Source of the DNA: an uncultured Eubacteriales bacterium
GTDB taxonomy: Bacteria > Bacillota_A > Clostridia > Oscillospirales > Oscillospiraceae
Direction of reading: 5' to 3'
Assembly: GCA_949451265.1 (NCBI GenBank)
Contig: CASTQR010000087.1
Span: forward strand, 1-6,943
DNA: 6,943 bases
Shown: one piece after another, positions 3,175 through 6,943 of the stretch
How positions within the stretch are numbered: the stretch's first letter is position 1
How the letters are laid out: every line of letters begins with the position of its first letter
Notes under the pieces: generated by a model
Told to the model about the DNA's origin: nothing
What the model saw: the letters and a program-made list of their open reading frames with translations, nothing else
The model's database searches: none
Translations under genes and position numbers: made by a program

Positions 3175-5022
3175 ATGACTAAAATCAAAAAATCGACGCG
3201 GATCCTGTGCGTGGCATTGGCGATCCTGCTGGTCAGCTGCATTGGGGCCAGCGTGGTTCAGACGGACTTTGGCAAAATCACCATCAAGGATCTCCGCTGG
3301 GAGACCGGGTCGGGCCATCAAATGAGCGCGCTGCTGTTTGTCCCGGATTCCGCCACGGTGGAAAATCCGGCGCCGGCCATCGTGTGCAGCCACGGCTGGT
3401 ATAACAACCGGGAGATGCAGGATCTGAACTACGTAGAGTATGCCCGCCGGGGGTTTGTGGTGATGTCGATTGATATGTATGGCCACGGCAACTCGGAGGA
3501 CATTGAAAACGGCAGCTGGTGGAAGCCGGAGAATAACGCCAACGGTATGTATGACGCGGTGAAGCTCATGGCCACCCTGCCCTATGTGGACGTGTCCCGC
3601 ATCGGCGTCACCGGCCACTCCAACGGCGCCCTGGCCAGCCGCACGGCGGTCATTCTGGACAACGGCGCGGAGACTCCGCTCATCGCCGCCGCACTGTTGG
3701 TGTCCAACGACGCGGTGTATACCGACAGTGAAACCGGCGAGTACATCAACATTTTCGGCAGCCGGGACGCCGGTATTGTCGCTTGCCAGTACGATGAGTT
3801 CTTCCACCGCGTGAAGCAGGAGGACGGATCCAGGAGCGCACCCCGGGATTACATCCACCAGAATACCGCCCAGTCCTTCCTCCACTTCGGCACGGATCCC
3901 GCTGGGTTGGAGGAACGCGCCCCCTACACTGTCTACCACCAGGATGTGGATGGCCAGGATGCCATGCGCGTGATCTATAATCCAGGCATGATCCACCCCT
4001 GGGCCCACTTCTCCGGCGGCGTGGTGGCCAACAGCGTGGCTTTCTTCGATGAGGCCCTGGGCGCTCCCCATATGCTGCCCGGCAGCAATCAAACATGGCA
4101 GTGGAAGGTGGCCTTCAACTTCCTGGGGCTGGTGGGCTTTGTGATGTTCATGGTCGGCTTTGCCCTGTGCCTGCTGGACACCAAGGCGTTCGCCGATCTC
4201 AAAGCGGACAGCGCCCCTGTTCCCGCCCCCCTCAGCGGAGGCAAGGGCAAGGCCTGGTTCTGGGGTGGCCTGGCTGCCGGGACGCTGTTCTCCATGTGGT
4301 TTTATATGTTCGGCTATAGCTGGTGCAATAAGATCAAGCCAGACTTCTTTAACCAGAGTAATCCCTTCTATATTGGTATGTGGAGCGCCCTGTGCGGGCT
4401 GTTCACCCTGCTCATCCTGGCCCTGTCCTACCAGCTTTTCGGCAAGAAGGAGGGCGGCGTGGATTTGAAGGCCAACGGTGTGGCCATCGGCTGGCGCAAG
4501 CTGGGCAAAACCGTGGTGCTGGGCGTGATCGTGGCGGCTGTCACTTACTCCACCGTGTTTGTCTCGGATTACTTCTTCAAGACGGACTTCCGCATCTGGT
4601 GCCTGACCATCAAAGCCTTCACCCCTGATAAACTGCTGGTGGCGGCCAAGTTCCTGCCCTTCTTCCTGATCTACTACGTCATCAACTCCGTGGCCAACAA
4701 CAGCTTCAACTACGTCAAGCTGGGCAATAAGGATTGGATCAACACTGTCGTGCTGGCCGTGTTCAATGGCCTGTCCCCCGCCATTCTCATCATATGGATC
4801 TACGTCACGTTTTTCATCCAGGGCTTCCATCCCATGGAAATGACCGGAATCGGCGGTTCCATCATCGGTATCTGGCTGTTCCCCATTGTGGTGATCCTGC
4901 CGGTATACGCGGTGATCTCGCGCATCCTCTACAAGGCCACTAAGAATCCCTATCTGGCGGGCATTATCATGGCTTTGATCGTTACGGTCATGAGCTGCAC
5001 CAACACGCTGACCCTGGCTTAA
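3175..5022 (+). CDS. membrane-anchored alpha/beta hydrolase with C-terminal multi-spanning domain
   Basis: This 615-aa protein starts MTKIKK, then a hydrophobic segment (about 9-27). That segment may be a membrane anchor or, because LVSC at 19-22 fits a lipobox, a lipoprotein signal. Residues about 35-300 are an alpha/beta-hydrolase domain: CSHGWYNN (oxyanion-hole HG at 73-74), MSIDMYGHG (97-105), the nucleophile elbow GHSNG with Ser149, a possible acid at Asp198 (GSRD) and a catalytic-His candidate at 274 or 278 (IHPWAHFS). Residues about 312-608 hold roughly eight predicted transmembrane helices that I cannot assign to a family. Substrate is unknown; the hydrolase domain probably faces outside. 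The ATG at 3175 is chosen for the basic-hydrophobic N-terminus and AAAGGGG 9 nt upstream; in-frame ATGs at 3025 and 3049 have weak sites and would add a non-signal-like extension. It is transcribed alone. Confidence 0.85.
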   Translation: MTKIKKSTRILCVALAILLVSCIGASVVQTDFGKITIKDLRWETGSGHQMSALLFVPDSATVENPAPAIVCSHGWYNNREMQDLNYVEYARRGFVVMSIDMYGHGNSEDIENGSWWKPENNANGMYDAVKLMATLPYVDVSRIGVTGHSNGALASRTAVILDNGAETPLIAAALLVSNDAVYTDSETGEYINIFGSRDAGIVACQYDEFFHRVKQEDGSRSAPRDYIHQNTAQSFLHFGTDPAGLEERAPYTVYHQDVDGQDAMRVIYNPGMIHPWAHFSGGVVANSVAFFDEALGAPHMLPGSNQTWQWKVAFNFLGLVGFVMFMVGFALCLLDTKAFADLKADSAPVPAPLSGGKGKAWFWGGLAAGTLFSMWFYMFGYSWCNKIKPDFFNQSNPFYIGMWSALCGLFTLLILALSYQLFGKKEGGVDLKANGVAIGWRKLGKTVVLGVIVAAVTYSTVFVSDYFFKTDFRIWCLTIKAFTPDKLLVAAKFLPFFLIYYVINSVANNSFNYVKLGNKDWINTVVLAVFNGLSPAILIIWIYVTFFIQGFHPMEMTGIGGSIIGIWLFPIVVILPVYAVISRILYKATKNPYLAGIIMALIVTVMSCTNTLTLA

Positions 5023-5096: not shown

Positions 5097-6455
5097 TCAA
5101 TACCGCCCAAAATCCGCCGACCGCCCGTCGGTGACGTCGGCCCCGAACTCGTAATCCTTCCCCGGCAGAATCGCGTTGAGCACAATCCCCGCGATGGCGG
5201 CGATGGCCAGGGAGGTGAGGGTGATGGCGGTGCCGCCCACGTTGAAGGTGAGCCCGCCGGAGAAGCCCAGGCCGCACACCAGAATCACGGCGGCGATGAT
5301 CAGGTTTCGGGAGTTGGTGAAGTCCACCCGGTTCTCCACCACGTTGCGCACGCCGATGGCGGAAATCATGCCGTACAGCATGAAGCTGATGCCGCCCACG
5401 ATGGCGGTGGGCATGGAGCCGATGAGCTCGCTCATCTTGGGGATGAAGCCCAGCACCACGGCGTAAATCGCCGCCAGCCGGATCACCCTGGGGTCGTACA
5501 CCCTGGACAGCACCAGCACGCCGGTGTTCTCGCCGTAGGTGGTGTTGGCGGGGCCGCCGAACAGGGCGGACAGGGAGGTGGCGATGCCGTCGCCGATGAG
5601 GGTGCGGTGCAGGCCGGGGTTCTCGATGAAGTTCTCCCCCACGGTGGCGGAGATGGCGGACATATCGCCGATGTGCTCCATCATGGCGGCGATGGCGATG
5701 GGGGCCATCACCAGGATGGCGGAGATGTCAAACTTGGCGATCTGGAAGGGGGGCAGGCCCACGATGCCCGCCTCGGCCACCGCCTGGAAGTTCAGGATGG
5801 CGGAGCCGTCCGCGTTAGTCATGCCGCAGGCGTTCATGATGATGGCGGCCACGTAGGCAATCACCACGCCCAGCAGGATGGGGATGATTTTCAGCATCCC
5901 CTTGCCCCAGATGTTGAACACCACGATGACCGCCAGGGCGATGAGGGCCAGGGGCCAGCACTGGGCGGCGTTGGTGACGGCGGAGGGGGCCAGGTTCAGG
6001 CCGATGCAGATGATGATGGGCCCGGTGACCACCGGGGGCAGGAAGCGCATCACCTTATGGACGCCCACCACCTTCACCAGCAGGGCCAGCACCAGGTAGA
6101 GCAGGCCGGCCACCACAATGCCGCCGCAGGCGTATTGCAGCTTTTCCGCCGCGGCCATCCCGGCGAACTTGCCGGAGTCCAGTTTGGACACCGCCTCGAA
6201 CCCGCCCAGGAAGGCGAAGGAGGAGCCCAGGAAGGCGGGCACCTTCAGCTTGGCGCAGACATGGAAGAACAGGGTGCCGATGCCGGCGAAGAACAGGGTG
6301 GTCTGGACAGACAGGGGCAGGCCGTACTGGCTGCTGACAATGATGGGCACCAGGATGGTGGCCCCGAACATGGCGAACATATGCTGGAGGCCCAGGATGA
6401 GCATCTTGGGCACGCCCAGGGCGCGGGCGTCGCGGACGGGCTCTTGGTTATTCAT
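5097..6455 (-). CDS. uraA: uracil permease, NCS2/NAT family (UraA/PyrP type)
   Basis: This 452-aa polytopic protein has the NCS2 length. It imports uracil, probably with protons, across the cytoplasmic membrane for pyrimidine salvage. Diagnostic segments are LQHMFAMFGATILVP (23-37), MEHIGD (259-264), NPGLHRTLIGDG (279-290), GGPANTTYGENTGV (300-313) and MLYGMISAIGVRN (359-371). Glu260 and Glu309 correspond to the two uracil-binding glutamates of E. coli UraA (Glu241, Glu290). Asp264 sits where, as I recall, E. coli UraA has His245. Uracil is more likely than xanthine because of EHIGD and YGENTGV. The ATG at 6455 has AAAGGGAG with 8 nt spacing. The gene is transcribed alone and its leader contains a translated attenuator. 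Convergent with the hydrolase gene. Confidence 0.93.
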   Translation of the reverse strand: MNNQEPVRDARALGVPKMLILGLQHMFAMFGATILVPIIVSSQYGLPLSVQTTLFFAGIGTLFFHVCAKLKVPAFLGSSFAFLGGFEAVSKLDSGKFAGMAAAEKLQYACGGIVVAGLLYLVLALLVKVVGVHKVMRFLPPVVTGPIIICIGLNLAPSAVTNAAQCWPLALIALAVIVVFNIWGKGMLKIIPILLGVVIAYVAAIIMNACGMTNADGSAILNFQAVAEAGIVGLPPFQIAKFDISAILVMAPIAIAAMMEHIGDMSAISATVGENFIENPGLHRTLIGDGIATSLSALFGGPANTTYGENTGVLVLSRVYDPRVIRLAAIYAVVLGFIPKMSELIGSMPTAIVGGISFMLYGMISAIGVRNVVENRVDFTNSRNLIIAAVILVCGLGFSGGLTFNVGGTAITLTSLAIAAIAGIVLNAILPGKDYEFGADVTDGRSADFGRY

Positions 6456-6482
6456 GCTACTCTCTCCCTTTCGTCAATTCGC

Positions 6483-6520
6483 AAAAAAGAAGCAATCACC
6501 GGAAAACGGCGATTGCTTCT
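6483..6520 (-). terminator. Rho-independent attenuator between the leader peptide and uraA
   Basis: On the minus strand AGAAGCAATCGCCG (6520-6507) pairs with CGGTGATTGCTTCT (6501-6488): 14 bp with one G-U wobble and a TTTTC loop, running directly into TTTTTT (6488-6483). It lies 27 nt upstream of the uraA start codon and downstream of the promoter, so uraA needs readthrough. The leader-peptide stop codon (6521-6519) overlaps the first two bases of the stem, so a ribosome at the stop would cover the 5' arm. Confidence 0.9.
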
Positions 6521-6590
6521 AAAAATGGAAATGGAAACGATACGCCCCAAGCTCAGGCGTTTTGAAAAACAGCGGCGTAAGCTGGCGCAT
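6519..6590 (-). CDS. 23-aa leader peptide of the uraA attenuator
   Basis: A short open frame begins with ATG at 6590 and stops with TAG at 6521-6519. It follows a strong AAAAGGAGG with 8 nt spacing from AGGAGG to the ATG, about 22 nt after the predicted transcription start. The peptide starts MRQLTPLFFK and ends YRFHFHF, with no membrane or enzymatic feature, so its translation rather than its product is probably what matters. The last codons are a U-rich run (TTTCCATTTCCATTTTTAG, minus strand). The stop codon touches the terminator stem. The layout resembles the pyrBI leader of enteric bacteria, where UTP shortage stalls RNA polymerase in U-rich sequence and lets the ribosome catch up and block the terminator. 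Expression of the peptide is inferred from the ribosome-binding site only. Confidence 0.7.
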   Translation of the reverse strand: MRQLTPLFFKTPELGAYRFHFHF

Positions 6591-6599
6591 ATCGTTCCC
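6533..6599 (-). promoter_or_regulatory. leader hairpin enclosing the leader-peptide start (candidate pause/timing hairpin)
   Basis: On the minus strand GGGAACGATATGC (6599-6587) pairs with GCGTATCGTTTCC (6545-6533), 13 bp with two G-U wobbles. Inside it AGCTTA can pair with TGAGCT. The 5' arm contains the leader ATG and the last bases of the Shine-Dalgarno region; the 3' arm is followed at once by the U-rich run. Once formed it would favour RNA-polymerase pausing and would hide the start codon; a translating ribosome would melt it. Confidence 0.6.
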
Positions 6600-6618
6600 C
6601 TCCTTTTGCGTTCGTCCC

Positions 6619-6647
6619 ATAATACCAGAAGGGAGCGGTCTTTGCAA
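6619..6647 (-). promoter_or_regulatory. sigma-A promoter of uraA
   Basis: On the minus strand TTGCAA (6647-6642) and TATTAT (6624-6619) are separated by 17 nt; the -10 box matches 5 of 6 consensus bases. The start is predicted near A6612, just upstream of the leader-peptide ribosome-binding site. A 10-bp palindrome, TTGTGCACAA (6655-6664), lies just upstream of the -35 box. Confidence 0.75.
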
Positions 6648-6662
6648 GACTGAATTGTGCAC

Positions 6663-6683
6663 AAAAAGGCGGCGGGATGCCGC
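6663..6683 (-). terminator. possible terminator of a minus-strand gene beyond the right edge
   Basis: On the minus strand GCGGC (6683-6679) and GCCGC (6673-6669) pair around ATCCC, followed by C and TTTTT (6667-6663). The stem is only 5 bp but all G-C. It lies upstream of the uraA promoter in the right orientation to end a transcript coming from outside the window. Confidence 0.5.
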
Positions 6684-6740
6684 AGAAAATTTTGGGAAGG
6701 GGGCCTTCCCGAGCCCTGCTTGCAGGGGGCCCTGCGGGGC

Positions 6741-6802
6741 GGTTTATCTGCGCCCGCCGCCTCGTCGGCGCAAAGTCCGCTCTGCTCCGCTTCCGCCTGC
6801 GG
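6741..6802. repeat. GC-rich intergenic repeat, copy 1
   Basis: Bases 6748-6802 are identical to 6889-6943 over 55 nt, and the similarity extends left (GGTTTATCTG against GGCTTACCTG). The unit contains the inverted pair TGCGCCCGCCG / CGGCGCA. Frames through it give Arg/Ala/Pro-rich translations typical of noncoding GC-rich DNA, so I call no gene here. Confidence 0.85.
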
Positions 6803-6881
6803 CGAAATCTCCGCCCGCTCCCTTGCGCCTCCTCTCCCCACAAAGCCTGAAGGACGGCTTTGCGGGGGCCCCGGATGGGAT
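6803..6881. other. spacer between repeat copies, no gene seen
   Basis: This GC-rich, pyrimidine-biased stretch contains CAAAGCC (6841-6847) and GGCTTTG (6856-6862), a 7-bp hairpin without a T-run on either strand. It is probably the remainder of a 141-bp tandem unit. Together with 6684-6740, which has only short self-complementary runs such as CCTGCTTGCAGG, it has no supported coding content. Confidence 0.45.
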
Positions 6882-6943
6882 GGCTTACCTGCGCCCGCCG
6901 CCTCGTCGGCGCAAAGTCCGCTCTGCTCCGCTTCCGCCTGCGG
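6882..6943. repeat. GC-rich intergenic repeat, copy 2 (cut by window end)
   Basis: This is the second copy of the repeat at 6741-6802, offset by 141 bp in direct orientation. Two differences, both pyrimidine changes, lie in the first seven bases; from 6889 to the window edge the copies are identical. The array may continue beyond the edge. Confidence 0.85.

Follow-up and report, generated by a model that had tools for sequence, protein, structure and literature searches.

A putative UTP-sensitive transcription attenuator with a Shine-Dalgarno gate ahead of the uracil permease gene uraA in Oscillospiraceae

The window analysed here, a stretch of 6,943 nucleotides from an uncultured Eubacteriales bacterium of the Oscillospiraceae, carries on its minus strand a homologue of NCS2 uracil permease genes, uraA, whose product matches TIGR00801 (NCS2) over the cut-off and also Xan_ur_permease, with PRK10720, the uracil-permease equivalog, below its cut-off. 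An earlier note on this DNA had described a promoter, a strong Shine-Dalgarno sequence (SD) and a 23-codon leader ORF before uraA, and every one of these parts is found (Table 1); a promoter search over positions 6300-6943 gave one match against a shuffle mean of 0.1. The 14-bp intrinsic terminator (P2) that the note had placed across the leader stop codon is there as well, the first base of its stem lying in the TAG. A hairpin that includes the start codon (P1) is also present in the predicted fold, with 17 pairs rather than the 13 first given, and the U-rich run is real, at a modest level in the window species (14 U in the last 30 nt ahead of the stop). The predicted fold of 6618-6483 reaches -60.3 kcal/mol (z -6.1), a value matched by 0 of 200 shuffles, and an Rfam search of the window leader gave no family match. 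In E. coli, UTP-dependent reiterative transcription at the start site is described for pyrBI, codBA, upp and carAB (PMC6245113); a U run after the -10 box, looked for as its sign, is absent from the window.

Elsewhere in the window, a 67-nt G+C-rich direct repeat, with two copies 94% identical (6736-6802 and 6877-6943), lies upstream of the uraA promoter. A homologue of the glycerol-3-phosphate responsive antiterminator (PF04309; 2194-2760, minus strand) stands upstream of two same-strand oxidoreductase genes, and the plus-strand gene at 3175-5022 encodes a protein whose N-terminal domain is esterase-like (weak AXE1 match) and whose C-terminal half, by eye, is hydrophobic and probably membrane-spanning.

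Table 1. Parts of the uraA leader and the gene behind it, in window coordinates
Feature	Position	Strand	Remarks
Promoter TTGCAA-17-TATTAT, TG ahead of -10	6619..6647	-	Motif scan; relatives mostly with similar hexamers
Strong Shine-Dalgarno sequence AAAAGGAGGGG of the leader ORF	6597..6607	-	
Leader ORF, 23 codons + TAG, MRQLTPLFFKTPELGAYRFHFHF	6519..6590	-	ATG 6590-6588, TAG 6521-6519
Hairpin P1, 5' arm: SD, spacer and start codon	6587..6603	-	Folding and arm-swap tests
Hairpin P1, 3' arm: anti-SD with 2-nt bulge, within the U-rich tract	6527..6545	-	Folding
Final 30 nt of the leader ORF ahead of the stop, 14 U; proposed UTP-sensitive tract	6522..6551	-	
Intrinsic terminator P2: 14-pair stem 6520-6488, then T5	6483..6520	-	First base within the leader stop codon
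uraA, NCS2 uracil permease homologue; proposed controlled gene	5097..6455	-	Profile matches; pyrR-uraA adjacency in relatives

How far does this layout extend beyond the window? A UraA scan of genomes yielded 80 uraA loci, all of which were scanned for the leader layout, and it recurs at 24 of them, in 23 cases in the standard form and once as a variant (L063); none of the 24 carries a Lachnospiraceae label. Among 300 genomes drawn from one family, uraA is present in 114 (E 1e-80 or better), and 85 of these loci were examined: 20 reached via the sequence model but outside it, 5 from the earlier loci and 60 picked by uraA position alone, with the remaining 29 uraA genomes outside the count ranking among the lower-scoring. 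Leaders were accepted at 50 of the 85, plus L063, and at 26 of the 60 picked by position. Among the 55 uraA loci with the highest scores, all of them examined, there are 43 leaders plus L063, and 11 loci are without a standard leader. The R1 search of the 300 genomes, in which 11 candidates per genome were scored, found at least 24.

The layout is also specific to uraA in these searches. A scan for the whole layout gave 17 matches in 1,088,416 strand-bases of the 80 uraA loci, all directly preceding uraA, against 0 in 800,000 strand-bases of four genomes; the scan missed 7 of the 24 known leaders. When a sequence model was run on the 24 genomes, the 23 strongest matches all fell on the known leaders, with uraA following in every case, and the strong match ranked after them lay at an extra uraA copy (L135). 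Two weak matches (L136, L139) proved on reading to lie in unrelated contexts, and the variant L063 was weakly recovered in its genome, G021 (E 0.1 at its site). A second copy of the leader in the same genomes was considered and set aside, the strong matches being the 23 known leaders and L135 only; a leader of quite different sequence ahead of other pyr genes would escape such a search. In the search before other pyr genes that the earlier note had proposed, no such leader was seen by eye directly before pyrB at 22 loci, of which L093 offers only 55 nt upstream and in which pyrB is often not first in its operon.

For the most part, ORF, SD and terminator travel together in the relatives, as the note had proposed to check, with few exceptions: L201 keeps hairpin and terminator with no convincing ORF, and L170 also departs from the pattern. 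L170, L194 and L201 were not counted as leaders, and L063 was excluded from the arm-swap tests described below. Start and terminator were set by hand for eight loci: L166-L169, L171 and L197 kept the start given by the finder, L161 received a different one, and L163 had been missed by the finder. The stop codon is mostly at the foot of the terminator. Of 70 leaders, 41 have it at -8 to +3 of the terminator in the ORF frame, compared with 3 of 22 and 3 of 49 open control frames, with a finder that favours frame 0; 67 of the 70 have it between -8 and +21 relative to the terminator start, with a finder that selects for such stops. The peptides share little past the closest relatives (for example MRKPTPLFFKTSGLRAYRFYFSF, MLYLMGLKAAEVSSLFHVPFV and MLKGLSLMFDSFSVSIFC), and many end Phe/Ser-rich. 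By this comparison the layout is conserved and the peptide, beyond close relatives, is not. Two arrangements are worth recording in their own right. At L170 (genome G104) the SD is contained in the terminator's own 5' arm, and the mere binding of a ribosome could therefore be enough to avert termination. At L163, L063 and L013 the leader ORFs cross the terminator and stop close to, or at, the beginning of uraA, like E. coli pyrL.

When the window leader and 24 others were folded up to the stop codon (two were cut earlier), the SD region mostly paired with the pyrimidine-rich end. Since a purine-rich SD will pair with any pyrimidine tract, we compared native arms with arms swapped between species; this permutation was used because an alignment of 24 leaders yielded no consensus pairs, probably owing to register shifts of P1 between species. 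In 24 leaders, the native SD:tract pairing was reached by 0 of 20,000 permutations. The same held in 46 further leaders (0 of 20,000, z -6.8; z -6.2 with one leader per cluster), where masking the longest purine run let 18 of 20,000 permutations reach the native value and a promoter-region control was null (z +0.5). For all 70 leaders together the result was 0 of 10,000 (z -10.0), with the terminator arms, swapped as a positive control, at z -15.8. The SD hexamer is paired at a mean probability above 0.5, with partners in the minimum-energy fold within the last 45 nt, in 63 of 70 leaders and not above 0.5 in the other 7, and the start codon is predicted to be paired in 56 of 70. The consensus of the window leader with six close relatives has 34 pairs, of which 10 have changed on both sides with pairing kept. 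By these comparisons, SD and U-rich tract are co-evolving partners and the tract doubles as an anti-SD. The earlier note had missed that its start-codon hairpin arises from pairing between the SD and the U-rich tract, which on this evidence is the best-supported new structural part.

No antiterminator emerged from the same test in the 70 leaders: swapping tract against terminator arm gave z +1.5, and SD against terminator arm likewise showed no excess pairing (z +2.3). SD:tract and terminator arms co-evolve and tract:terminator arm does not, so two independent hairpins appear to be selected, with no antiterminator between them. A Trp-like antiterminator was rejected on this result. The statement in the note that none is apparent thus holds across the leader family; in the window a weak alternative between the tract and the 5' arm of the terminator can be drawn (-12.5 kcal/mol).

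We propose, with a probability of roughly 60%, that the leader is a pyrBI-type, UTP-sensitive transcription attenuator of uracil uptake, blocked directly by the ribosome and equipped with a ribosome-loading gate. Sequence comparison supplies the parts, their conserved order, the SD:tract co-evolution and the placing of the stop codon at the terminator, and it found neither a selected antiterminator nor PyrR; that transcription terminates here in vivo, that the ORF is translated, that UTP is the signal and that the ribosome blocks P2 is what we infer. As the polymerase leaves the promoter, the leader SD would be exposed. With UTP plentiful, the polymerase would pass the U-rich tract quickly, and the tract, complementary to the SD and start region, would fold back as P1 and exclude the ribosome; P2 would then form and transcription would end before uraA. 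With UTP scarce, the polymerase would slow within the U-rich tract, the very stretch that otherwise closes the SD, and a ribosome would gain time to load, translate the short ORF and open P1. Once it had arrived at the stop codon, where P2 begins, it would block the terminator, and uraA would be transcribed. The lack of an antiterminator fits such direct blocking by the ribosome, and the preference for U, the identity of the gene and the parallel with pyrBI point to UTP as the probable signal.

Can a ribosome in these bacteria follow the polymerase closely enough? In E. coli, termination fell from about 90% to less than 10% when a stop codon was relocated to a point 5 bp upstream of a terminator (PMC4824070). 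Keeping the terminator from forming there requires tight coupling over pyrL, although the transcripts of a pyrL reporter were mostly uncoupled (PMC5021804). Bacillota are classed at phylum level as runaway-transcription species (PMC13323073), which argues against a ribosome catching up. The gate would ease this objection, as a polymerase slowed in the tract would keep the SD open and await the ribosome. Terminators lie 8 nt or less from ordinary stop codons too, in 7 of 30 cases in these genomes and in 4 of 16 in E. coli, small numbers in both, and such proximity does not by itself demonstrate coupling.

Other kinds of control have to be weighed against this proposal. PyrR is the usual pyrimidine regulator of Bacillota, and in PyrR-dependent pyr attenuation (RF00515), as in our proposal, a premature terminator controls pyrimidine genes; PyrR is over the cut-off in 47 of the 300 genomes of the family draw. 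Such PyrR-type or other protein-dependent attenuation is nevertheless barely credible for this leader. It requires PyrR and binding loops, and neither turned up where the leader is found: the PyrR RNA loop that the note did not find in the window was found in 0 of 24 leader genomes too, and PyrR protein is over the cut-off in 0 of these 24, whose completeness is unstated. Weak PyrR matches in 23 of the 24 (best 35 bits against a cut-off of 138) are read as other phosphoribosyltransferases. Conversely, a leader is present in 1 of 10 examined PyrR genomes (G258, with pyrR on another contig) against 49 of 75 without a PyrR match, a distribution which suggests that the leader may stand in for PyrR control. 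In genomes with both genes, uraA lies by coordinates right behind pyrR in 16 of 20, which supports a pyrimidine role for uraA. Highly improbable, too, is amino-acid or nascent-peptide attenuation, in which a ribosome would stall at Phe, His or Ser codons or be arrested by the peptide. The Phe/Ser-rich peptide ends speak for it, but the peptides vary from lineage to lineage, the motif TTTCTATTT comes from two different reading frames, and there is no antiterminator for a stalled ribosome to release; the conserved run of codons for one residue with an alternative antiterminator that would mark an amino-acid attenuator was not found. Peptide arrest is unlikely, and the earlier idea of sensing through ribosome arrest at the Phe/His-rich end is not supported, given the lack of peptide conservation beyond the closest relatives; of the earlier interpretation, a terminator linked to a leader ORF, a U-rich leader end, no PyrR element found and no antiterminator have the support of the comparison. 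An unregulated, constitutive attenuator or plain upstream terminator is improbable given that ORF, SD, hairpin and stop position are kept across divergent sequences and that look-alikes are confined, in the scans above, to uraA.

A different signal acting on the same structure deserves more weight. Here P1 would gate ribosome loading as a sensor of translation initiation rather than UTP, opened by ribosome supply, temperature, an RNA-binding protein or an sRNA, and the tract would be U-rich only through the need to pair with the SD. SD:tract pairing is indeed the strongest new signal, and some leaders keep the hairpin with a U-poor tract; eight of the 70 have 4-9 U in 30 (L165-L169, L177, L204, L213), and L063 has no U-rich end. 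We nonetheless regard this reading as unlikely. The last 30 nt of the leader ORF hold a mean of 15.5 U in 24 leaders (the window and 23 others) and 14.6 in all 70, and this U exceeds the pairing need: G in the 5' arm of P1 forms 243 G-U against 458 G-C pairs, compared with 113 against 436 in the terminator, a modest difference. Pairing with the purine-rich SD partly explains the U-richness. T/(T+C) in the 24 leaders is 0.68 in the tract against 0.54 in the earlier leader and a background of 0.16 at uraA third positions. The leader is, moreover, associated with a uracil transporter, and no conserved loop sequence is evident by eye.

If UTP-sensitive attenuation is the correct reading, it would offer PyrR-free control of uracil uptake in gut Bacillota, and a natural test of whether Bacillota ribosomes can trail the polymerase closely enough to regulate termination, against the runaway classification. 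Our literature search found no paper on such a uraA leader and no description of an SD:tract gate; the original pyrBI papers lay outside the search, hence we make no claim that the gate is unpublished.

Finally, we would place the leader among known systems. In the BmrB leader of bmrCD in Bacillus subtilis, as described in PMC4191407, ribosome-mediated transcription attenuation likewise works through a leader ORF in a member of the Bacillota, and readthrough needs translation; unlike our leader, BmrB senses ribosome-targeting antibiotics and has alternative stem-loops with a predicted anti-terminator. Leader-peptide attenuators have also been predicted in Firmicutes for hisS of bacilli (PMC2965389), but these involve histidine codons, and uracil, pyrimidine, UTP and uraA are absent from the main text of that paper. 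The pyrBI system of enterobacteria, with its leader ORF pyrL, shares more of the layout: a short leader ORF with its own strong SD before a pyrimidine gene, a U-rich tract transcribed just ahead of the terminator (in our set with the eight U-poor exceptions), an ORF end overlapping the terminator and, by position, a terminator that the leader ribosome could block. pyrBI has no competing antiterminator, and the swap test found none in the uraA leaders. The two differ in phylum, in the gene controlled (here a transporter) and in their peptides, which by eye are unrelated. The uraA-leader tract abuts the terminator, whereas SD partners lie 15-33 nt ahead of it in six gamma-proteobacterial pyrB leaders, and the uraA-leader stop codon is usually at the terminator foot, not inside or beyond it; the Salmonella, Klebsiella and Photobacterium leaders have theirs 10-11 nt inside the terminator.

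The gate itself may be shared. The SD of E. coli pyrL, GGGAGG, is predicted to fold onto its own U-rich tract (NC_000913; L242:6400-6534), and in the six gamma-proteobacterial leaders the SD hexamer pairs with a later part of the leader at a probability of 0.82-1.00. The same fold is predicted for Klebsiella, Salmonella, Proteus and Photobacterium and is doubtful for Aeromonas, where the script's choice of SD, GGTCGG, may be wrong and the segment paired with it lacks U-richness. Native arms rank 12th of 720 permutations in these six, suggestive for a small sample with three close relatives, and a shuffle test is weak for Proteus (z -0.4) and Klebsiella (z -1.0). Convergence seems likelier than common descent for the uraA leader and enterobacterial pyrL. 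More tentatively, and at a little under even odds, we suggest that the U-rich tract of pyrBI-type attenuators may serve both as UTP sensor and as leader anti-SD, a general and apparently convergent gate in Oscillospiraceae uraA and gamma-proteobacterial pyrBI that would point to working transcription-translation coupling in part of the Bacillota and possibly add an element, the SD:U-tract gate, to the textbook pyrBI system.
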